A stretch of DNA of 64,000 nucleotides from Bacteroidales bacterium (GTDB taxonomy: Bacteria; Bacteroidota; Bacteroidia; Bacteroidales; UBA932): positions 79,782-143,781 of the forward strand of contig JAGBVR010000015.1 of NCBI GenBank assembly GCA_017630215.1. The letters are read 5' to 3'. Made by a program: the position numbers and the translations under genes. This document shows positions 34,890 through 60,493 of this stretch, one piece after another. Below the pieces are notes generated by a model. It was not told the DNA's origin and searched no databases. It saw only the letters and a program-made list of their open reading frames with translations. The first letter of the stretch is position 1; each line of letters begins with the position of its first letter.

Positions 34890-35012
34890 ATGAAAATATA
34901 CCAGACTCCAATCATAGAAATCATTGAAATCCTCTCAGAAGGCCGCATACTCTCCGGAAGTACAGGAGAATCCTACAACGATCAGGAAGACTTCGGAGGT
35001 ATATGGTCATGA
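34890..35012 (+). CDS. 40-residue YxTP/EG/GIW peptide, family member 1
   Basis: The peptide starts MKIYQTPIIEIIEI, has a central SEGRILSGS and ends GGIWS. It shares YQTPxI, the EG turn, a following Ser and a near-terminal Trp with peptides at 49442 and 58465. No signal peptide or membrane segment is visible; the C-terminal half is acidic and Gly-rich. A promoter with good -33/-7 boxes lies 21 bases upstream. The next gene, a fimbrillin-like plus DUF4855 lipoprotein, starts 18 bases downstream. I recognise no named family. It could be a leader, a secreted signal, a modified-peptide precursor or a small partner of the lipoprotein. Confidence 0.65.
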   Translation: MKIYQTPIIEIIEILSEGRILSGSTGESYNDQEDFGGIWS

Positions 35013-35030: not shown

Positions 35031-37340
35031 ATGAAGAACACTATATTCTTATCAGCGATGCTCTTATGCCTGATTTCATGCACCGGAGCAGAAGAAGAGT
35101 TCAGCACTCTACGCACCAAAGAGTTTACCTGCCTGCTGGAAAACTCAGACTCCCCTGCCACAAGGACAGCTCTCGGACCCGGAAACGCCATCCTCTGGGA
35201 CAACAATGATTATATAAAGGTTTATTCGGCCAATAACACCGCCGGTACAGTTTTCACCGACATCACGCTTGAAAACCAGGGGCGCAAAGCCACCTTCAAA
35301 GGTATGACGGAATCCGCCGATTCGTATTTCGCGGTATACCCGGCCTCTTCCGGCTCGGGATTTGACCCGCAGAACAATACAATTTCAGTGAGGATACCGA
35401 CACAGCAGAAGGCCACAGCAGGTTCATTTGCAGACAATGCCAACACCTCTGTCGCGAAGACTGCAGAGGACGATCTGTACTTCAAGAACATAGGTGCAGT
35501 ACTGGCAATCAAATGTCCGACAGCCTATGCTTCATCCCTCATACTGAGAAGTTCCGACAAAGGCATCGCGATGTCAGGAGAGTCTGAAATCGACTATTCA
35601 GACGGAGAACCGACAGTGGAAGAAATCACAGACGGTGTGAACTACATCAATCTTACAGACCTGGGAAGTTCTTCATATGGAAAGACTTACTATCTGACTG
35701 CATACCCCGGAGATTATAAGGGATTCGACATCATCATCACCAATACCGCAAAGACACACAGGTCGGTCATCAGCAGCGGCAAGGTACTGAAACTGGAAAG
35801 AAATGACAATATCCTCCTGTACGACGGTTCATTTGCCGGATGGAACGCTCCGACAGAGCCATACTCGGTAAACGCTTCTTTGGAAGCTGACTTCACCCTT
35901 ACAGTCAGCTGGAACTGCGATTCAGATAAAAGTCTGTGCAAGGGATTCAGGATATATGCACGCAAAAGCGCAGATATACAGACGCAGACAATGGTGGGAC
36001 AGACCAATGCCGATGTAATGAGTCTTAACATCAGGGATCTGGAAGAGAATCAGACATACGACATAGGCGTCCAGTCGATCGGTTCCCAGTCAAGATACGA
36101 CTCCGACATAATATGGAAAAAGAATGTGAGAATTCCTGACAGCGGTATGTATGAGTGGGAAAAGTCGCGTGAAGGAATTCTTGATTTCGCCGACCTCGAC
36201 CTGCTTGCAGGCGGATTGACGAGCAAGACTCCTGACACTTGGAACGAGACACGTCTTAAGCCGCACGTCACTTTCATTGATGAAAACGGGAAGGAGCAAT
36301 GGCTTCATGAGGCATTCCTTTTCTTTGGCAGCGAAGATTCCAGGTCAAATTCAACATTCGTCATTTCTGCTGACGGGCAAAAATCAGGAGATCAGGAGGC
36401 TTGGAAGAGATTTGCCGATTACTGGATATCCCCCGAGGGTGTCATAAAAACTCTCGACAAGACAATATCCGATGCTATGTCACGCATCGGTCAGCCCGGA
36501 TTCAAACATAAGGTCATCATCACAATGCCTGATCCTATCATGCTGGAATATTTCACTGACAAAAAGTCATCCACCACTTACTGGGGAAAGGTGGACGGAC
36601 GACAGCTGGACTTCAAAAAAACCGCTGATCAGGTTCTTGCCTACCAGTGGTACATCGATTACATCAGGGCGGCATGGTACAAGGCGGGGCCGCAGAATAT
36701 TGAACTTGCAGGTTTCTACATTCTGTCAGAGGAGTTGGTAAGCGAAGAAAGCGGATGGAATTATAACTATAAGAGATGGGACAAGATACTCCCATATGTA
36801 TCCGAATACCTTCACGCGAGAAAGTACGGAATGTACTGGATACCTTATTATCAGGCTGCAGGTTACAATAAAACCTCCAAGCTTGGAATCGACTACACCT
36901 GGCTGCAGCCTAATAAATATTGGGACTATCCGGAGAAGAAGCAGAAGAAATCCTGGACCTGGGTGTTCAATACAATGAACACATACGGACACGGAATGGA
37001 GATAGAGTTCGAGGGTTCTCACGGAGAATCTGGCTGGAGCCAATACGAAGAAGGAGTTGCTCGTACAAGTTCTTCAATTCTGGAGACTGTGCGCACGAAT
37101 AATGATGCTCAGGGAACACCGAAAGGCCAGCCTAACCCTCAGGCAGCAAGAAACAAGCAGCTTCTCCGTGATTACATGACACAATTCAAGGAGAACGGAT
37201 ATTATGGTAAGGCACGCATCGCCACATATTCAGGCACTGATGCCATGTACGAACTGGCCGCTTCGCCGGACCGGAAAGATAAAGAGATGTATCTCGAATA
37301 CTGCCGTTTCATTGTAGAGAACCCAAAGAGAAAGCAGTAA
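35031..37340 (+). CDS. Lipoprotein: fimbrillin-like module, Fn3 domain and DUF4855
   Basis: 769 residues, lipobox LISC followed by TGAEEEF (surface-export type). Residues about 25-265 form a fimbrillin-like module with the signature TRTALGPGNAILWDNNDYIK, also seen in the proteins at 49557, 58622 and 62170. Residues about 272-355 are Fn3-like. Residues 375-769 are DUF4855, nearly identical over long stretches to the protein at 19229 (DQVLAYQWYIDYIRAAW, YTWLQPNKYWDYPEKKQKKS). It combines a pilus- or adhesin-type anchor with a presumed glycan-active domain. It follows a small peptide gene at 18 bases and shares the divergent operator region. Confidence 0.78.
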   Translation: MKNTIFLSAMLLCLISCTGAEEEFSTLRTKEFTCLLENSDSPATRTALGPGNAILWDNNDYIKVYSANNTAGTVFTDITLENQGRKATFKGMTESADSYFAVYPASSGSGFDPQNNTISVRIPTQQKATAGSFADNANTSVAKTAEDDLYFKNIGAVLAIKCPTAYASSLILRSSDKGIAMSGESEIDYSDGEPTVEEITDGVNYINLTDLGSSSYGKTYYLTAYPGDYKGFDIIITNTAKTHRSVISSGKVLKLERNDNILLYDGSFAGWNAPTEPYSVNASLEADFTLTVSWNCDSDKSLCKGFRIYARKSADIQTQTMVGQTNADVMSLNIRDLEENQTYDIGVQSIGSQSRYDSDIIWKKNVRIPDSGMYEWEKSREGILDFADLDLLAGGLTSKTPDTWNETRLKPHVTFIDENGKEQWLHEAFLFFGSEDSRSNSTFVISADGQKSGDQEAWKRFADYWISPEGVIKTLDKTISDAMSRIGQPGFKHKVIITMPDPIMLEYFTDKKSSTTYWGKVDGRQLDFKKTADQVLAYQWYIDYIRAAWYKAGPQNIELAGFYILSEELVSEESGWNYNYKRWDKILPYVSEYLHARKYGMYWIPYYQAAGYNKTSKLGIDYTWLQPNKYWDYPEKKQKKSWTWVFNTMNTYGHGMEIEFEGSHGESGWSQYEEGVARTSSSILETVRTNNDAQGTPKGQPNPQAARNKQLLRDYMTQFKENGYYGKARIATYSGTDAMYELAASPDRKDKEMYLEYCRFIVENPKRKQ

Positions 37341-49441: not shown

Positions 49442-49555
49442 ATGGACACCATCAAATACGAAACACCAGCTATCTCTCTGGTCTATCTGACAACAGAGGG
49501 AGTACTATGCCAAAGCGGAACAGAAGATATCGAAATCGATAATGGAGAGTGGTAA
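49442..49555 (+). CDS. 37-residue YxTP/EG/GEW peptide, family member 2
   Basis: The sequence begins MDTIKYETPAISLVYL, has TEGVLCQSG and ends DNGEW. The YETPxI, EGxLC and terminal Trp features are shared with the peptides at 34890 and 58465. It starts 7 bases after the GH29 stop and ends 1 base before the ATG of the giant lipoprotein, an arrangement typical of translational coupling. It has no signal peptide. The single Cys is shared with the 58465 peptide. The second half is acidic (TEDIEIDNGE). Function unknown. Confidence 0.7.
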   Translation: MDTIKYETPAISLVYLTTEGVLCQSGTEDIEIDNGEW

Positions 49556-49556
49556 T

Positions 49557-52500
49557 ATGAGACTGAAGTCGCTTTTATATTCATTTGCATGCTTTCTGAG
49601 TGTAGCTTGCATTCAGGAAGAAAGATTTGAGGGAAACATCAATGAAACCCCGGACAAGGTCTATGCGCTCATAGCGGAAGACACAGAATCAAAGACATAT
49701 CTGGGAGACGGGATCAAAGTCCTGTGGAGCAGGAACGATGCTATCACGACATACCTTGGAAGCACCAAAAGAGGAAGGTATATCATCGAGTCAGAATGTG
49801 CAGGAAGTACAGAAGGGTCATTTATACAGGACACTGAGTACAAACATATCGGATCGGGAAGCGGGATTGGAAACAATATTGCGTTCTACCCTTTCTGCGA
49901 GCCATCATGCAAAGCCATCGAGGACGGATACACCTTGACCGGTGTCACCCTGCCTGCCGTGCAGTCATATGCTCATGAGAGCTTCGGTGAAGGTGCATTC
50001 CCGATGATTGCCGTTACAAGGCACACTGAAGACTATGAGTTCCATTTCAAGAATCTTTGCGGAGCACTGAAGCTGCAGCTGACAGGATCAGTCGTGGTCA
50101 AGGAAGTGAAATTGGTCGGAAATGCGGCAGAGAAGCTATCCGGCAAAGCCATTGCATATGGTTTCAAGGACAATATGTCGCCACAGATCGAGATGCAAGA
50201 CGATGCTTCAGAGTCTGTGACCCTTGACTGCGGCAGCGGAGTCCAGCTCAATGAAGCATCACCGACTGCATTCATATTGGCTTTGCCTCCTGTAGAGTTT
50301 GAAAAGGGCTTTACAGTAACAATTACCACTGCTGATGGCAAGACCGGCACACTGAGCACTGAAAAGAAGAATCCTGTCGTCCGTTCGCATATGCTCCAGA
50401 TGCCAGTGATAAAGTTCGAGACTGCCGGACCTGTAATTTCAGACGGCGACTACTATGATGAGTTTGGCATCAACCACGGTCCGGGTACTGAAATCGACGG
50501 AGTGATCTGGGCACCTGTGAACTGCGGATACCACGAAACCGATTACCCTTGGGGCAAGCTCTACCAGTGGGGACGCCGCTTGGGATTCGGATATAACGAC
50601 AGCAACGAATATACAGATGCAACCTGGCCATCAGAAAAGATGCCTGGAGTCCTGTTCACAGACGAAGCCCAATCCCAATATTATGCAGACATCTATTTCA
50701 CTGGTGGTAACAATCTGCTAGGAGTACATACCTGGAGTTATGTGCCAATCAACTTTTGGACATACTCCCCTTGCCCGGAGGGTTGGCAGCTTCCGGCAAG
50801 CGAGGATTTCTCTGCTCTTGCAAAGAACAGCTCGCAATGGACTATCCACAATGGAGTGACGGGATATTGGTACAGCGGATCGACCGGATACTCAGAAAGC
50901 GTCCCTAGAGTATTCCTGCCTTCATCAGGAAAAATCGACGCTGCCGGCACTGCCGGTGAAAGATGTGAGAACGGTTATTATTGGATCAGAAGCAGCGAGG
51001 CCGGAATAGCAGAGTCCTTTGCCACTTCTACCGGATCTATCCCGTGGAACCAGCACTTGAATGCGTTCTCTGTACGTTGCGTAAGATACCCGTCACAGAC
51101 TTACGAATACACTACGGAAATCACTCTGGAGAAAACAGAACTGTCGCTGGAAAACCACGAGACCGTAAAACTTTCCGCCACTGTGACCAAATCATCCGGA
51201 AACACAAGCAAATCAGTTTTCTGGGACAGCGACAGACCTGAAATAGCACGAGTCAGTCAAAAAGGAGAGATTACTGCCATATCCGAAGGAAAGGCACGAA
51301 TCAGCGCCACATCCGGCAATATTACCGTATACTGCTCTGTAAATGTCACTCCAAGAAAGAAGCACGAAGGCGATTACATCGACGAATACGGCATCAACCA
51401 CGGTCCTGGTACTCTCATCAGCGGAGTTACTTGGGCACCAGTAAACTGTGGCCACCACGACGAATATGCGGCAGGAGGTAAATATTATCAATGGGGAAGA
51501 AGATTCGGTCAATATAGTTTTGACAGCAGAATATCGGGCCCGGTGGATCTGGTAGAATATCAGAGCGAGGAATACGCTGACAATTATATCAACGAAGGTC
51601 TTAGCATCTGGCGTGATGATCTATGGACTGATGAATATAAAAGCGAATACGACCCTTGCCCTGAAGGATGGACAATACCTGATCCATACACTTATCGTAA
51701 TCTTGTCACAAATATCGCAGAAGTGACAAGATTCGGTCAGACTTACCTTTGGGCGAGCGGTGCTGTACCATCCGAGTTAGGAGGGCCAAGTATCGGTCTG
51801 AAGAGGGAGAATAACTTCTGGACAAATCAGAGCGAGGAGCAAAATAAGGCAGTAGGATTCACTATGTACGAAACCTCATTATATCCTTTCCATAAAGGCC
51901 AGGCTATTCTGATTCGCTGCATCAAGGGTGGAAGCACCACACCGGTAACCGGAATCTATATCAACAAATCTTCATTGTCTCTCACCGTAAGGGAAAGTGC
52001 CAGACTGCAGGCCGCTGTAAGTCCTTCCGCACCATCCCACAAATATATTGACTGGAGTTCTGACTCCCCTACTGTGGCAAGTGTCGATGCTGACGGAACA
52101 GTAACGGCAAAGTCTGCAGGAAAGGCCGTGATCAGAGCAATGTCTGGTTTAAAAACGGATGAATGCGTCGTAACGGTTTCAAGTTCCCCATATGCGGTGA
52201 AATACATTGATGAAAATGGCATTGACTATGGAGAAGGCATCGATATCGACGGAGTAGTCTGGGCACCCGTGAACTGCGGATACCACGAAACTGATTTCCC
52301 TTGGGGTAAGCTTTACCAGTGGGGCCGTATGTACGGCCAGGGTTACTCTGATTCAGAATATTCTGACGCCGTCATACCACAGCTGGACGATAATGGATTC
52401 TCCGGCATAAACAGCGACAATAACGTAGACAAATTTTTCACCGGTACATACTATTACCCGGACCAGAGCCAATGGAATGCAGGAACTGCCTCATCTCCTG

Positions 52501-54455
52501 TCAAAGGTGAATATGATCCGTGTCCTGAGGGATGGAGGGTGCCGACTTCAGCTGAAATCGGGACATTGCTGACTAATCGTTCAGGAAGACTGGAAAAGAA
52601 CATCCTGGAACAGGACGGAATATGGGCCAGCGGTTCAAGACCGTGCACGGACAGAGAAATGAGGATATTTCTGCCATTGGCCGGAAACAGAAGTTCCAGC
52701 GGTACTGCAAGCGATAGAGGAAAATTCGGTCAATACTGGACAACTGATTATTATTCAACTTACTATGGCACCTTCAGTTCTTATTGGATAAATGGAGGAT
52801 TTGGCGGAAGCTATTATAGTGTGGAAACGATTGGAGCTGAGCCCGAATCCGGATACTCTGTCCGATGCGTACAGGAAGACCCTGACGCCGTCATGATCCA
52901 AGCGACAGGATTGAATATCGGTGCTCAGGAACTGACTCTTGAGCCTTCTCAGACACACACATTCTCTTCTGTCATAACTCCATCGAATGCCACCACCAGA
53001 ACTATCCGATGGAGCAGTTCTGACAAATTCGTGGCATCGATAGATAACGGCAGACTTACAGCAGTTTCTGCAGGTACGGCCGTAATCACCGCAAAGGTAG
53101 GAACTGTAACCGCCATATGCACTGTAACCGTAGCTCCAAGATATCAGGAGGGATATTATATCGACGAATATGGAGTCAATCACGGAGAAGGCATCAATAT
53201 CGACGGAAAGATATGGGCTCCGGTCAACTGCGGATACGACCCGACACACGCCACTAACGGTAAATTCTATCAGTGGGGAAGAAAATACGGACAAATATAC
53301 TCATACGGCAGCAGCATGAACTGCGAGTATGAAGAGGGTCCTGTGAGCATCGAATCAGGCGAATCATCGCAGAACAGGAACACTTTCTACACGGCTGCAA
53401 ACAGCCCGTACAACTGGTTTGAACCGTTTGATGCCGCACTCTGGAACTCCGGTTCAGAAGAACATCCTGTCAAAACTGAATATGATCCTTGTCCTGAAGG
53501 ATGGAGAGTACCTACCAAGACTGAGATGAATGCCCTTCAGGCCAATGCATCGCCTGAAGTGATTGTATCGTCCAGTAAGGGAAAATATTTCAGTGGTTCG
53601 AACACATATTCAGACAAGGGACAGCGCCTCTTCCTAGCCTATACGCGCAAGATGTTCGGGTCCAACGGTAATATCACCAGTATGTATGATGCTGAATGCT
53701 ATCAGACTTCTGCTCCACAGCAGACCTGGAATGCCGACGGATATTCACTTCGCTGCATAAAAGACACAGATCAATTGGCAGAGATCCCGGTAATGAATCT
53801 TGAAATAGAGTCTTCATTAAAGATATTGAAAGATCATTCCAAAGACTTGAATATCGTGATATATCCTGCAAACGCCACCTCCAGCGAATTGATTATCCGC
53901 TCATCTGACACATCCGTTGCGACAGTAGACAAGGATGGAGTCGTCACTGGAGTATCAGCTGGCAATGCTGTGATCACTGTAAAGTGCGGAAATAAATCCG
54001 CAGAGTGCACCGTCCAGATATGGGAGATGAGCGACTACATATCACACGATAATAAAAACTGTGGCAAAGGCGTATACATCAATGACCTGGCATGGGCACC
54101 GGTAAACGAATATGATTATTTCAGTTATTGGTCAGACTTTAGCACCGTCTGTCCTTCGGGATGGAGATTGCCAACTGAAAACGAGCTGAGAGACCTTATG
54201 AGAAACGGCAAGGACTTTCATTTCACAGGAACAACCCCATACTCAGAAGAGGCGACAAGCATCTATCTGCCGCCTAAGGGCCGGTATAACATAGACAAGG
54301 AAAGGTATCAGTTTGAAGGGGAAAACGCATACTTATGGACGTCGACCACCTATTCAGGATGGAGGACATTTGTTTATGGAACCAATCGCGGCATAGGGTA
54401 TTATGACAGCGACAACGGATTATTAAAAATGTCGGTCCGCTGCGTTCAGGAATAA
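49557..54455 (+). CDS. Giant surface lipoprotein: fimbrillin-like module and five Fibrobacter-paralogous/C-lectin-like domains with four Ig-like linkers
   Basis: 1632 residues from ATG 49557; an ATG at 49542 overlaps the peptide gene. Lipobox SVAC with IQEERFEG after the Cys suggests surface display. Residues 25-290: fimbrillin-like module (KTYLGDGIKVLWSRNDAITT). Then five repeats of a domain opening YIDEYGINHGPG and containing IWAPVNCGYH, KLYQWGRR and EYDPCPEGWRVPT, near 294-511, 605-789, 881-1106, 1199-1401 and 1493-1632. This matches the 'Fibrobacter succinogenes major paralogous domain', a lectin-like fold. Big_2-type Ig domains lie between them (about 521-599, 796-876, 1114-1193, 1411-1488). 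The last repeat is shorter and lacks the KLYQWGR block. Adhesion or glycan binding is likely. Confidence 0.85.
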   Translation: MRLKSLLYSFACFLSVACIQEERFEGNINETPDKVYALIAEDTESKTYLGDGIKVLWSRNDAITTYLGSTKRGRYIIESECAGSTEGSFIQDTEYKHIGSGSGIGNNIAFYPFCEPSCKAIEDGYTLTGVTLPAVQSYAHESFGEGAFPMIAVTRHTEDYEFHFKNLCGALKLQLTGSVVVKEVKLVGNAAEKLSGKAIAYGFKDNMSPQIEMQDDASESVTLDCGSGVQLNEASPTAFILALPPVEFEKGFTVTITTADGKTGTLSTEKKNPVVRSHMLQMPVIKFETAGPVISDGDYYDEFGINHGPGTEIDGVIWAPVNCGYHETDYPWGKLYQWGRRLGFGYNDSNEYTDATWPSEKMPGVLFTDEAQSQYYADIYFTGGNNLLGVHTWSYVPINFWTYSPCPEGWQLPASEDFSALAKNSSQWTIHNGVTGYWYSGSTGYSESVPRVFLPSSGKIDAAGTAGERCENGYYWIRSSEAGIAESFATSTGSIPWNQHLNAFSVRCVRYPSQTYEYTTEITLEKTELSLENHETVKLSATVTKSSGNTSKSVFWDSDRPEIARVSQKGEITAISEGKARISATSGNITVYCSVNVTPRKKHEGDYIDEYGINHGPGTLISGVTWAPVNCGHHDEYAAGGKYYQWGRRFGQYSFDSRISGPVDLVEYQSEEYADNYINEGLSIWRDDLWTDEYKSEYDPCPEGWTIPDPYTYRNLVTNIAEVTRFGQTYLWASGAVPSELGGPSIGLKRENNFWTNQSEEQNKAVGFTMYETSLYPFHKGQAILIRCIKGGSTTPVTGIYINKSSLSLTVRESARLQAAVSPSAPSHKYIDWSSDSPTVASVDADGTVTAKSAGKAVIRAMSGLKTDECVVTVSSSPYAVKYIDENGIDYGEGIDIDGVVWAPVNCGYHETDFPWGKLYQWGRMYGQGYSDSEYSDAVIPQLDDNGFSGINSDNNVDKFFTGTYYYPDQSQWNAGTASSPVKGEYDPCPEGWRVPTSAEIGTLLTNRSGRLEKNILEQDGIWASGSRPCTDREMRIFLPLAGNRSSSGTASDRGKFGQYWTTDYYSTYYGTFSSYWINGGFGGSYYSVETIGAEPESGYSVRCVQEDPDAVMIQATGLNIGAQELTLEPSQTHTFSSVITPSNATTRTIRWSSSDKFVASIDNGRLTAVSAGTAVITAKVGTVTAICTVTVAPRYQEGYYIDEYGVNHGEGINIDGKIWAPVNCGYDPTHATNGKFYQWGRKYGQIYSYGSSMNCEYEEGPVSIESGESSQNRNTFYTAANSPYNWFEPFDAALWNSGSEEHPVKTEYDPCPEGWRVPTKTEMNALQANASPEVIVSSSKGKYFSGSNTYSDKGQRLFLAYTRKMFGSNGNITSMYDAECYQTSAPQQTWNADGYSLRCIKDTDQLAEIPVMNLEIESSLKILKDHSKDLNIVIYPANATSSELIIRSSDTSVATVDKDGVVTGVSAGNAVITVKCGNKSAECTVQIWEMSDYISHDNKNCGKGVYINDLAWAPVNEYDYFSYWSDFSTVCPSGWRLPTENELRDLMRNGKDFHFTGTTPYSEEATSIYLPPKGRYNIDKERYQFEGENAYLWTSTTYSGWRTFVYGTNRGIGYYDSDNGLLKMSVRCVQE

Positions 54456-58266: not shown

Positions 58267-58377
58267 CAGTCTGACCAGGATACACGACAGGAAATCCACA
58301 TAAAGTGTATTTTTATAAAAGATGGCAAAGCACCTAGGCTTTGATTATATATCCGACATATAGTATCTCTGCAAATC

Positions 58378-58408
58378 TTGTCCATATATATAAGGTTGCC
58401 TATATTTG
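58378..58408 (+). promoter_or_regulatory. Promoter of the third peptide-lipoprotein pair
   Basis: TTG at 58378-58380 and TATATTTG at 58401-58408 with 20 bases between. It drives the small peptide at 58465 and the lipoprotein behind it. Confidence 0.7.
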
Positions 58409-58464: not shown

Positions 58465-58599
58465 ATGAATAAAAGAGAAATTACAGACAAGCGATATGAA
58501 ACGCCTTCTATATCGCTAATTGAATTGTATAACGAGGGAATCTTGTGCGGCAGTGAGAATGCAAATGAAACGCTTGAAGAAAACGAAGGTATCTGGTAG
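58465..58599 (+). CDS. 44-residue YxTP/EG/GIW peptide, family member 3
   Basis: The sequence starts MNKREITDKRYETPSISLIE, has NEGILCGS in the middle and ends NEGIW. YETPxIxL, EGxLCxS and the terminal Trp coincide with the peptide at 49442, and more loosely with that at 34890, although the rest differs. Such selective conservation indicates that it is translated. There is no signal peptide. It has its own promoter, and the lipoprotein gene starts 22 bases after the stop. Function unknown. Confidence 0.7.
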   Translation: MNKREITDKRYETPSISLIELYNEGILCGSENANETLEENEGIW

Positions 58600-58621
58600 T
58601 AATCTATTGAAGCGAAAACAT

Positions 58622-60493
58622 ATGAAACAATGTACATTGATCATGCTGGCAGCTGCAATGTCTTTTGCTGCGTGCCAGGAAGTGGAAGCTCCATTGGCTG
58701 AGGAAAATGTTCTTTCTGCCGTCATCGAACAGGATGAAACGACTAAGACTGTAATGGATGACAATAATAACATCCTTTGGTCGGCAAATGACCAGATCAT
58801 TGCGTTCATGAAGTCTTCATACGGTCATAAATATCAGGTAAAGTCTTCATTCATAGGCAAATCTTATGCTGATTTTTCAAGGATCTCATCAGCTGGAGGA
58901 GATGATCTGTCAGCGGGTAATGAGTGGGATCATAATGTAGTCTATTATCCATATTCATCTTCGGTCGAGTGCCTTAAATCAGGCGCGAACTATACCCTCG
59001 ACGTGGTCCTCCCATCCGAGCAGACCTACGCTGCTGAAAGCTTCGGCAATGGTTCAATGGCGATGGTAGCCGTGAGCGAGGACAATGACATCGTCTTCCG
59101 CAATGTTCTCGGTGGCATGAAACTCCAGCTCCTTGGAACCCAGAAGGTCAAGTCAATCAAGCTTGAGGGAAAGAACACTGAAAAACTTTCGGGTGCAGCC
59201 ATTGTTACAGCCTATACGGATGAGACAAAACCAGCCATTACAATGGCTTCTTCTGCCTCGACATCAGTGACCCTAAACTGCGGTTCTGGCGTTCAGCTCA
59301 ATGAAAGTAAGGCTACTGAGTTCATCATCGCCCTTCCTCCAGTGCTTTTCAGCAAGGGATTCACTGTAACTGTTACCGACGCAGAAAGCAAGACATATAC
59401 AGTCGAGACAGACAAGGCTAATACTGTCCTTCGTTCGTCATTATTGAATATGCCTGTAGTGGTGCTTAAAGAAGAAGGTATAGGTGAAGATGAAAATCCA
59501 GACTCAGATGGAACTTTGGTCGAGGCTGTTAGTCTGAATAGAACCTCCCTGACTCTTCCCCCTGGAATATCATATACTTTGACCGCAAAGGTGGTTCCTA
59601 CAGATGCAACAGACAAGACTCTGACCTGGTCATCTGATAGAGCGGCGATTGCTATGGTAGATCAGAATGGAGTAGTTTCCGCAGTCAGCGACGGTTCTGC
59701 AGTCATCACTGTAGTCGCTCGGGGAGGCGTATCGAAATCTTGCACTGTGACCGTTGTCACACCTCCGACTTCTCAGGCCACAGTTGATTATGTTGATGAA
59801 TACGGAGTGAACCATGGTAAAGGTGTCTCTATTGGAGCTACTGTCTGGGCACCTGTCAATTGCGGTTACAAAGCTGCATCAGCCACTGATAATGGGTATC
59901 CGTATGGTAAATTATATCAGTGGGGTAGAAAATACGGTCAGGGGTACTCTGATTCATATGATGCGGATGAGCCGACAATAGAGGAAGGACCGGTCTCCCT
60001 AAAATATGGTCAGGCCGAGAGCAATTCGAATGTGTTCTTTACCAGTTTTTCGGATTTTCATTATGACTGGTTGTCATCACAAGATGACAATTTATGGAAC
60101 AGAGGCTCTGACTCTGCTCCCGTCAAGACAGAATATGACCCATGCCCGAAAGGTTGGCGTGTACCGACATATTCGGAATTGAGGCTTCTTTCAAGTGCAA
60201 AATCTTCTTGGACTACGAATGACGGTCAGAAAGGTTATTGGTTTAGTGGAGCGTCAGATATAAAATATGATGTTCGTATAGATGAAGATGCTAAGGTATT
60301 CTTCCCTGCTGCCGGCTACCGCAACAGCTCCGGCAGTGCCAGCACTCGAGGTAATAACGGCGACTATTGGTCTTCAAAGACGTATCACAATAATGCCCAT
60401 GACGCTCGTCACATCTACTTTGGCAGCAACTATGTCTATATTGGCGGCAATGATCGCGCGAGTGGGCACTCTGTCCGCTGCGTCCAGGAATAA
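58622..60493 (+). CDS. Surface lipoprotein: fimbrillin-like module, Ig-like domain and C-terminal lectin-like domain with DGR-type variable end
   Basis: 623 residues from ATG 58622 (MKQCTLIMLAAAMSFAAC); the frame extends upstream through the peptide gene in another phase. Lipobox FAAC then QEVEAP suggests surface display. Residues 25-285: fimbrillin-like module (TKTVMDDNNNILWSANDQII, LPSEQTYAAESFGNGSMAMV, LNCGSGVQLNE). Residues about 302-379: Big_2-type Ig domain. Residues 389-623: lectin-like domain as in the giant protein (YVDEYGVNHGKG, TVWAPVNCGY, EYDPCPKGWRVPTYSELR). From about residue 562 (AAGYRNSSGSAS) to SVRCVQE the sequence has the form of variable regions made by diversity-generating retroelements. 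It is probably an adhesin. Confidence 0.85.
   Translation: MKQCTLIMLAAAMSFAACQEVEAPLAEENVLSAVIEQDETTKTVMDDNNNILWSANDQIIAFMKSSYGHKYQVKSSFIGKSYADFSRISSAGGDDLSAGNEWDHNVVYYPYSSSVECLKSGANYTLDVVLPSEQTYAAESFGNGSMAMVAVSEDNDIVFRNVLGGMKLQLLGTQKVKSIKLEGKNTEKLSGAAIVTAYTDETKPAITMASSASTSVTLNCGSGVQLNESKATEFIIALPPVLFSKGFTVTVTDAESKTYTVETDKANTVLRSSLLNMPVVVLKEEGIGEDENPDSDGTLVEAVSLNRTSLTLPPGISYTLTAKVVPTDATDKTLTWSSDRAAIAMVDQNGVVSAVSDGSAVITVVARGGVSKSCTVTVVTPPTSQATVDYVDEYGVNHGKGVSIGATVWAPVNCGYKAASATDNGYPYGKLYQWGRKYGQGYSDSYDADEPTIEEGPVSLKYGQAESNSNVFFTSFSDFHYDWLSSQDDNLWNRGSDSAPVKTEYDPCPKGWRVPTYSELRLLSSAKSSWTTNDGQKGYWFSGASDIKYDVRIDEDAKVFFPAAGYRNSSGSASTRGNNGDYWSSKTYHNNAHDARHIYFGSNYVYIGGNDRASGHSVRCVQE
60306..60490 (+). 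other. Candidate DGR variable region (C-terminal 60 codons)
   Basis: The end of the lipoprotein gene follows the layout of retroelement-diversified lectin ends: GYRNSSGSAS, then GNNGDYWSS, a hypervariable stretch and G-x-SVRCV. At positions where template repeats typically carry AAC codons, this gene has CAC, TAC, GGC, AAC, TAT, GGC, GAT and CAC, all reachable by adenine-only change. G/C content rises abruptly here relative to the preceding codons. No template repeat or reverse transcriptase is in the window. Confidence 0.5.

Follow-up and report, generated by a model that had tools for sequence, protein, structure and literature searches.

A window of 64,000 nucleotides (the whole stretch of DNA analysed here), taken from a draft Bacteroidales genome (2.26 Mb, 57.8% complete), raises the question of what is made from three small peptides, each encoded on the forward strand directly before a lipoprotein gene. 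The clearest member (58465-58599, 44 residues) carries YETPSI with Y11-x-x-P14, E24-G25, C28 and S30, and its acidic tail ends in IW; another (49442-49555, 37 residues) carries YETPAI, and the remaining one (34890-35012, 40 residues) is a divergent member carrying YQTPII without the usual Cys-x-Ser. Judged from gene content and gene order, the peptides are probably the precursors of ribosomally synthesized and post-translationally modified peptides (RiPPs), belonging to a trans-encoded system like that of the linear polyphosphorylated peptides (LPP); their products may act with a module of the adjoining lipoprotein. What was computed here comprises selection on the coding frame, the motif of the leader, the order and co-occurrence of genes, runs that unite peptide (and lipoprotein) with machinery genes, and the similarity between peptide tails and lipoprotein modules.

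A peptide family under selection

The three open reading frames (ORFs, 37-44 residues) were present as described by an earlier sequence-only reading of this DNA, and an EG turn, an acidic tail and a W at or beside the end were common to all of them. The shared motif claimed by that reading was retained for Y[EQ]TPxI, the EG turn, the acidic tail and W; Cys-x-Ser was missing at 34890, and Trp was the last residue in 14 of the 59 genes of the context set (described below), in which an aromatic residue was found among the last three in 39 of 59. The distances from peptide stop to lipoprotein start, said to be within 25 bases, were 18, 1 and 22 nt for the peptides at 34890, 49442 and 58465, respectively (the second and third lipoprotein starts, 49557 and 58622, were picked by lipobox). 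In agreement with the earlier statement that signal peptides are absent, no hydrophobic N-terminal segment was visible in the window peptides (by eye; no signal-peptide program was run). No match to Pfam or NCBIfam was obtained for the three peptides, and isolated weak matches only (two members each) were obtained for 39 family members.

The search of the own genome with a single peptide gave 15 matches at E <= 1 (one of them inside a 338-residue frame), and a 14-row profile gave 14 members at E <= 3.6e-13 and one further match at 0.07; one more candidate (C40:35814, 2.2e-4) was added by a wider profile. The family is thus larger than previously noted, with no fewer than 14 members in the incomplete draft. 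The same 14-row profile matched 15 of 41 relatives, among them none of the 16 from other families, so the sensitivity of the search depends on the profile used. In the genus sample of 151 genomes (own genome included), 115 had at least one match to a 39-row profile (E <= 0.01), with up to 26 per genome and an in-frame stop marked in a few matches. Across the order, a 36-row profile including divergent members found matches in 15 of 295 genomes, the own genome among them, spread over ten families; one of these genomes (G316) had no YxxP ORF at its match. Among the loci of named relatives, 12 of 15 came from cow, yak, water deer, goat, water buffalo or roe deer. The literature searched (open-licence papers, with the bioRxiv collection outside) listed no account of such peptides, nor any of LPP-type RiPPs from Bacteroidales.

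Leader counts were made on 112 distinct genes, for which YxxP was required by selection and Tyr was set as position 0. E13 was found in 102, G14 in 90, C17 in 97 (Ala in 10) and S19 in 106 of these genes, which gives the core pattern Y-x-x-P-(9)-E-G-V-[LI]-C-x-S; past YxxP, the leader reads x-[VTI]-E-V-[LIV]-E-[VLI]-x-x-E-G-V-[IL]-C-x-S. The tails of the 59 context-set genes contained 26% Asp/Glu and 2.5% Lys/Arg. From the conservation of the one part and the acidic, variable character of the other, each peptide consists of a constant leader followed by a variable acidic tail.

The ratio of non-synonymous to synonymous substitution rates (dN/dS) was estimated from 25 pairs without overlap, selected on nucleotide identity (0.62-0.97; 0 stops in 963 codons), and was 0.32 in the peptide frame (frame 0) and 1.27 and 1.53 in frames 1 and 2, respectively. 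The peptide frame is under purifying selection, chance ORFs are ruled out by this frame-wise comparison, and the selective conservation proposed earlier is borne out by a ratio not near 1. These pairs were used instead of a first set of 19 pairs picked by amino-acid identity (0.29 overall, 0.21 in the core, 0.32 in the tail), because that set was biased.

A gene set for probable modification and export

YxxP is given as a recognition motif of RiPP recognition elements (RREs), PqqD-type elements, in the available parts of two papers (PMC12710340; PMC13381572). PqqD (PF05402) was found in 126 of the 151 genus genomes, mostly in one copy. PqqD, an HprK-like kinase, an S24/S26 signal-peptidase-like protease and an ABC exporter were found together within 6 kb in 31 of 39 PqqD-chosen stretches (13 of 16 from the genus, 13 of 16 from a second set of several families and 5 of 7 from named genomes), and within the same distance of PqqD an ABC exporter was found in 34 and a nucleotidyltransferase (NTP transferase) in 14 of the 39. 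The scans were six-frame, with profiles built partly from the same loci. Where stretches were chosen by the kinase, all four genes were present in 5 of 10; some of the stretches were split or truncated at the end of a contig.

The kinase P-loop SG.GKSTHS was invariant in 8 sequences, and the matches of the kinase to named families were weak and below the cut-off (HprK_rel_A and ScmC; HprK/PEPCK in PDB). The protease matched Peptidase_S24 above the cut-off in 2 of 4 sequences scanned, signal peptidase I profiles below it, and SEC11C/SPase (signal peptidase) weakly; its Ser35 and His73, 38 residues apart, were invariant in 6 sequences, and D88 was also invariant. In the PqqD profile, N35 was nearly invariant and D73 and Y63 were invariant in 16. 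MsbA was among the best profile matches (below the cut-off) of one exporter.

In three genomes, all from other families than the genus sample, the peptide stands beside this set, which bears on the earlier proposal to check for nearby maturases in relatives. In G380, one same-strand run holds peptide, module lipoprotein, kinase, protease, PqqD, NTP_transf_5 and ABC exporter, and the peptide is the sole match in that genome at threshold. The order is peptide, kinase, protease, PqqD, NTP transferase and ABC exporter in G169 (with two more peptide matches elsewhere), and peptide, lipoprotein, ABC exporter, protease, PqqD and kinase in G263. In a further stretch (L269), one peptide was found about 7 kb from PqqD.

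In the genus sample, peptide and PqqD were both present in 104 genomes, peptide only in 11, PqqD only in 22 and neither in 14 (odds ratio 6, p = 1.4e-4); for genomes at least 90% complete (four genus genomes without printed completeness were left out of the completeness subsets), the counts were 43, 1, 12 and 4, respectively (p = 0.015; p = 0.16 with at least two peptides required). Among named peptide genomes, PqqD was found in 11 of 12, three of them coinciding by coordinates with genus-sample genomes. At the level of the order (294 genomes, own genome excluded, with G316 taken as peptide-positive despite the missing YxxP ORF), a strong kinase match (E < 1e-36, a cut-off set after seeing the match table) was found in 10 of 14 peptide-positive genomes versus 7 of 280 others (p = 1.6e-11), and a match at E <= 1e-5 in 11 of 14 versus 39 of 280; all co-occurrence statistics ignore the relatedness of genomes. 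The peptides might be true genes of another pathway, associated with kinase and RRE by coincidence of descent, as exceptions in both directions, the frequency of RRE proteins in the order (184 of 295 genomes) and the neglect of relatedness would allow; such a coincidence is held to be very improbable in view of the three side-by-side arrangements and of a kinase co-occurrence spread over several families. Of the three roles originally considered, the modified-peptide precursor is now the best supported, since the gene set co-occurs with the peptides and lies beside one in three genomes.

The gene set matches that of the LPP, described in 2026 from Paenibacillus lppAKBSDN (PMC13381572, cited here from its available part), which amends the earlier statement that no role is described. 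LPP proteins comprise the RRE LppB, the kinase LppK (which phosphorylates core Ser3), the NTP transferase LppN, the exporter LppD and LppS, a signal peptidase I-like protease of archaeal type which needs the RRE and cuts three residues before the conserved Ser; the precursor leader is YxxPxVLxHQxIxFETxxS, and no biological role is known for these peptides according to the discussion of that paper (PMC13381572). Here too a putative discrete RRE, a signal-peptidase-like protease, an HprK-like kinase and an exporter that may be MsbA-like were found, together with an NTP transferase in part of the loci, short precursors with a YxxP leader and variable C-termini, and some loci beside polysaccharide-export-like genes (by eye). 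The conserved Ser stands 18 residues after Tyr in the printed LPP consensus and mostly 19 here, and, as in LPP, no macrolactam cyclase was found near the set in 38 of 39 PqqD stretches. The YxxP-holding N33, D70 and Y60 of LppB align with N35, D73 and Y63 here via PDB chain 9x8z_B, which is taken to be LppB because the residue spacing fits; S29 and H68 of LppS are 39 apart, and Ser35 and His73 here 38 apart.

Unlike LPP precursors, most precursors here lie away from the gene set and are paired to a surface lipoprotein. The host order is Bacteroidales, whereas LPP are restricted to Bacillota according to the discussion of PMC13381572 (in its results, most protease homologs are from Bacillota, and its main text as available holds no word starting with 'bacteroid'), and phosphorylation here is a prediction. 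The system appears to work like LPP; in the strict sense it falls outside that family, both by the leader consensus past YxxP and by where the precursors are encoded.

Binding to the RRE, phosphorylation of the serine, removal of the leader and export are predicted from homology. Most precursors would come from a small gene immediately in front of the gene for a surface lipoprotein, and a PqqD-type RRE, encoded elsewhere in the genome, would capture the YxxP leader; the HprK-like kinase would then modify the conserved Ser near the leader-tail junction, the signal-peptidase-like enzyme would remove the leader, and the ABC exporter would carry out the acidic tail, which may work with the N-terminal module of the adjoining lipoprotein as ligand, subunit or cap. 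If this holds, a RiPP class called Bacillota-restricted would extend to a dominant Gram-negative gut order, one pathway would serve many dispersed precursors, and surface lipoproteins would be a candidate partner for the LPP peptide class.

The motif [CA]-x-S was considered as a possible -3/-1 cleavage site of signal peptidase, and this motif-based idea lost weight in view of LppS, whose cut falls three residues ahead of the conserved Ser.

Two other RiPP types were compared. Paeninodin-type lasso peptides likewise have a discrete RRE, a kinase, a nucleotidyltransferase, an exporter and a [Y/W]xxP leader (PMC13381572; PMC7533575, from the parts available); in the 39 PqqD stretches, however, an Asn-synthetase-like protein was found within 6 kb of PqqD in one (L134) only and a B2-like protein in none (phmmer, with one L134 query each, on PqqD stretches only). 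Bacteroidales Gly-Gly (GG)-leader RiPPs with peptidase-containing ABC transporter (PCAT) exporters share small precursors and dedicated export (PMC10352776, available part), whereas here no match to Peptidase_C39 was obtained in the two exporters scanned, no GG motif was seen by eye, and the leader is YxxP.

Lipoproteins and the peptide tail

The context set comprised 41 stretches including the window (40 being picked for peptides), in which 61 members were examined; L094:4428 (E 0.55) was left out of 62 profile matches, and three weak matches (L101:13398, L103:1322 and L114:9887) were kept. The gene caller and the lipobox and module tests were simple patterns. A downstream gene was called for 58 members, on the same strand for 56 and at -20 to +60 nt for 49, of which 46 had a lipobox; together with the family matches in the genus sample, this supports the association with lipoproteins in other genomes which the sequence-only reading had suggested searching for. 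The lipobox pattern was found in 49 of 56 same-strand downstream genes versus 75 of 327 other genes of the same stretches (p = 1.6e-20), and 41 of 54 same-strand gaps below 200 nt were 10-26 nt.

With such gaps and this placement of the ORF directly upstream of the lipoprotein start, translational coupling is possible in any case, and a regulatory leader could be imagined, in which the small ORF sets lipoprotein translation by coupling or by ribosome stalling, with no function for the peptide as such. Stalling peptides usually act at their end, whereas the conserved residues here are in the middle of the peptide; the motif is the one expected of RRE-binding leaders, a regulatory leader would not be expected to co-occur with a kinase, the G169 peptide stands before the machinery without a lipoprotein, and some members (L120 and others) have no lipoprotein directly downstream. 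The regulatory role, one of those raised earlier, is not favoured and is judged very unlikely.

In the window, the peptide at 34890 is followed by a lipoprotein (35031-37340, forward strand) with the N-terminal module and DUF4855, that at 49442 by one (49557-54455, forward) with the module and stretches of Big_2 (four) and FISUMP (four to five), and that at 58465 by one (58622-60493, forward) with an N-terminus of signal peptidase II (SPII) type, the N-terminal T-K-T..W module, Big_2 and a FISUMP domain. The module pattern was matched by three window lipoproteins with a peptide and one without (the latter a non-lipoprotein by eye). The numbers with and without a peptide were 7 and 2 for the own-genome stretches (one of the two having a peptide at 144 nt), and 33 and 6 for relatives picked by peptide, in which 16 more peptides precede lipoproteins missed by the module pattern. 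In the 40 PqqD-centred stretches (L244 being picked for its peptide), they were 2 and 1, and a peptide was found before 0 of 45 other lipoproteins. Matches to the peptide pattern were also obtained before 7 of 377 non-lipoproteins in the PqqD-centred stretches and before two other window lipoproteins; one of these matches is the G169 peptide, and the others are ends of other genes (by eye). Some module genes that lack a peptide belong to arrays, where they follow a different lipoprotein gene (L089, L094).

The module called fimbrillin-like in the earlier reading is indeed shared at the N-terminus of SPII-type lipoproteins, as in fimbrillin/Mfa-like lipoproteins, but the fimbrillin label is weak: Mfa_like_1 matched 1 of 48 downstream proteins at E <= 0.01 and 2 of 16 at E <= 1, and no solved relative of the module was found by profile search. 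To our knowledge, none of the fimbrial systems described so far includes a peptide partner. Past the module, the lipoproteins differ, and where domains were found they included FISUMP, Big_2, DUF4855, nuclease, M64 peptidase, leucine-rich repeat (LRR) and others. A secreted bacteriocin-like peptide, made by the same enzymes, for which the lipoprotein would serve as receptor or provide immunity, would fit the exporter beside the RRE, the peptide-lipoprotein pairing and the many pairs per genome; it is considered unlikely, as the C-terminal parts of the lipoproteins are diverse, unlike an immunity family.

Of 50 downstream references, 48 were aligned, two cut ones being left out. Tails and modules were compared by their similarities. 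The Pearson correlation with N-module similarity was 0.68 (p = 0.001) for the tail and 0.22 for the leader. Nearest neighbours by tail and by module agreed in 24 of 48 cases (shuffled mean 1.0, maximum 7), and with neighbours from other genomes only in 17 of 48 for the tail versus 6 for the leader. For pairs with module similarity below 0.3, the correlation of the tail was 0.29 (p = 0.001) with the module and 0.05 (p = 0.056) with the rest of the lipoprotein. These values suggest that the mature tail may act with the N-terminal module of the adjoining lipoprotein, the part of the proposal with the least support. A small unmodified partner or assembly factor would also account for the one-to-one pairing and for tails that track the module; there is very little likelihood of it, since no signal peptide was seen by eye, the leader matches RRE recognition, and peptide and lipoprotein in G380 lie in one run with RiPP-type enzymes. 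For the mature product, a partnership with the lipoprotein, one of the roles suggested earlier, is a plausible fate.

Taken further, the modified-precursor reading would make this a genome-wide surface-modification system, in which one enzyme set phosphorylates, trims and exports a peptide repertoire, each peptide is made with its own lipoprotein and delivered to the module of it, and the effector domain is freely exchangeable; this is possible and is put forward tentatively. The modified peptide would then be a structural or regulatory part of a lipoprotein, not a free natural product. Small, easily missed genes adjoin a large set of gut-bacterial surface proteins, and the question is testable with a handful of genes.

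Several observations weigh against the modified-precursor reading or parts of it. Neither PqqD nor the kinase was found in the own genome by profile searches of the 57.8% complete draft; it also gave no match to the first 12.5 kb of a 13 kb sister locus, which is consistent with a draft gap. The gene set is present in the sister genome G445, for which one stretch was compared and showed 91-95% identity. A family member was found by profile in 0 of 16 genus PqqD stretches, and no peptide was seen in 9 of 10 kinase stretches. Peptides were found in 11 of 25 PqqD-negative genus genomes, including G078 (83% complete, 7 matches), G093 (80%, 5) and G112 (91%, 2, with four YxxP peptides before lipoproteins by a laxer search). 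Conversely, 22 of 126 PqqD-positive genus genomes had no peptide at threshold, 12 of them at least 90% complete; in four of these 12, divergent YxxP peptides in front of lipoproteins came up once the search was relaxed. In the order, PqqD of any type was found in 12 of 14 peptide-positive versus 172 of 280 other genomes, a difference without significance (p = 0.09), and the kinase profile was used instead. Outside the genus, a lipoprotein start lay within 90 nt for only 14 of 23 YxxP ORFs (by eye), and the two further G169 peptides do not precede lipoproteins (by eye). LppS D93 has no counterpart at the same spacing, the Asp here being elsewhere, and the leader past YxxP is unlike VLxHQxIxFETxxS of LPP, sharing only a Ser at similar distance (PMC13381572, available part). 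Rank correlations between tail and module were weak (0.17 or less), and near-identical tails with unlike modules occur in L094, from which the signal lies in closer pairs; DNA linkage could account for part of the correlation, because the module is the part of the lipoprotein gene nearest the peptide.

Promoter and variant loci

The peptide at 58465 was said to have its own well-formed promoter. A promoter-like pair, CTTG-N20-TATATTTG (58377-58408, forward strand), was found upstream of it by eye and was labelled after the Bacteroidales-type promoter consensus; family-wide, TAnnTTTG was found upstream of 23 of 60 members versus 88 of 325 in the comparison, with no significant enrichment (p = 0.09).

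Some members depart from the usual arrangement. That at L086:8846-8971 has 31 residues with the tail nearly absent, lies directly 3' of a lipoprotein gene, is not itself followed by a called lipoprotein, and is possibly a remnant. For the member at L120:6035-6184, the next gene begins after 11 nt and is peptidase-like (by eye M20-type), in place of a lipoprotein. Related YxxP peptides with no lipoprotein directly behind were seen in L198, L211, L213, L219 and L220 (G443 and G261), some with tails such as GGYRSNLWGDDED, and are perhaps another subfamily. At L094:5355-15777, some module lipoproteins of an array have no peptide directly upstream, and the array holds three similar peptides.

Kinase or PqqD genes adjoin polysaccharide-export-like genes (Wza/Wzc-like, by eye) in L142, L267, L268, L280 and L283, and capsular loci lie beside LPP genes in Bacilli (PMC13381572, available part). 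L134 (G013:C1:480000-497000) holds PqqD, a kinase-like protein and two Asn-synthetase-like proteins and, by eye, YcaO-like and sulfotransferase-like proteins and two small WxTP-leader peptides; it is probably a lasso-type RiPP cluster. At L142:4910-10967 (G159), a radical SAM/SPASM protein and a 141-residue YSSP-leader peptide stand before kinase, protease, PqqD, NTP_transf_5 and exporter, and this locus is a radical-SAM variant of the same gene set.

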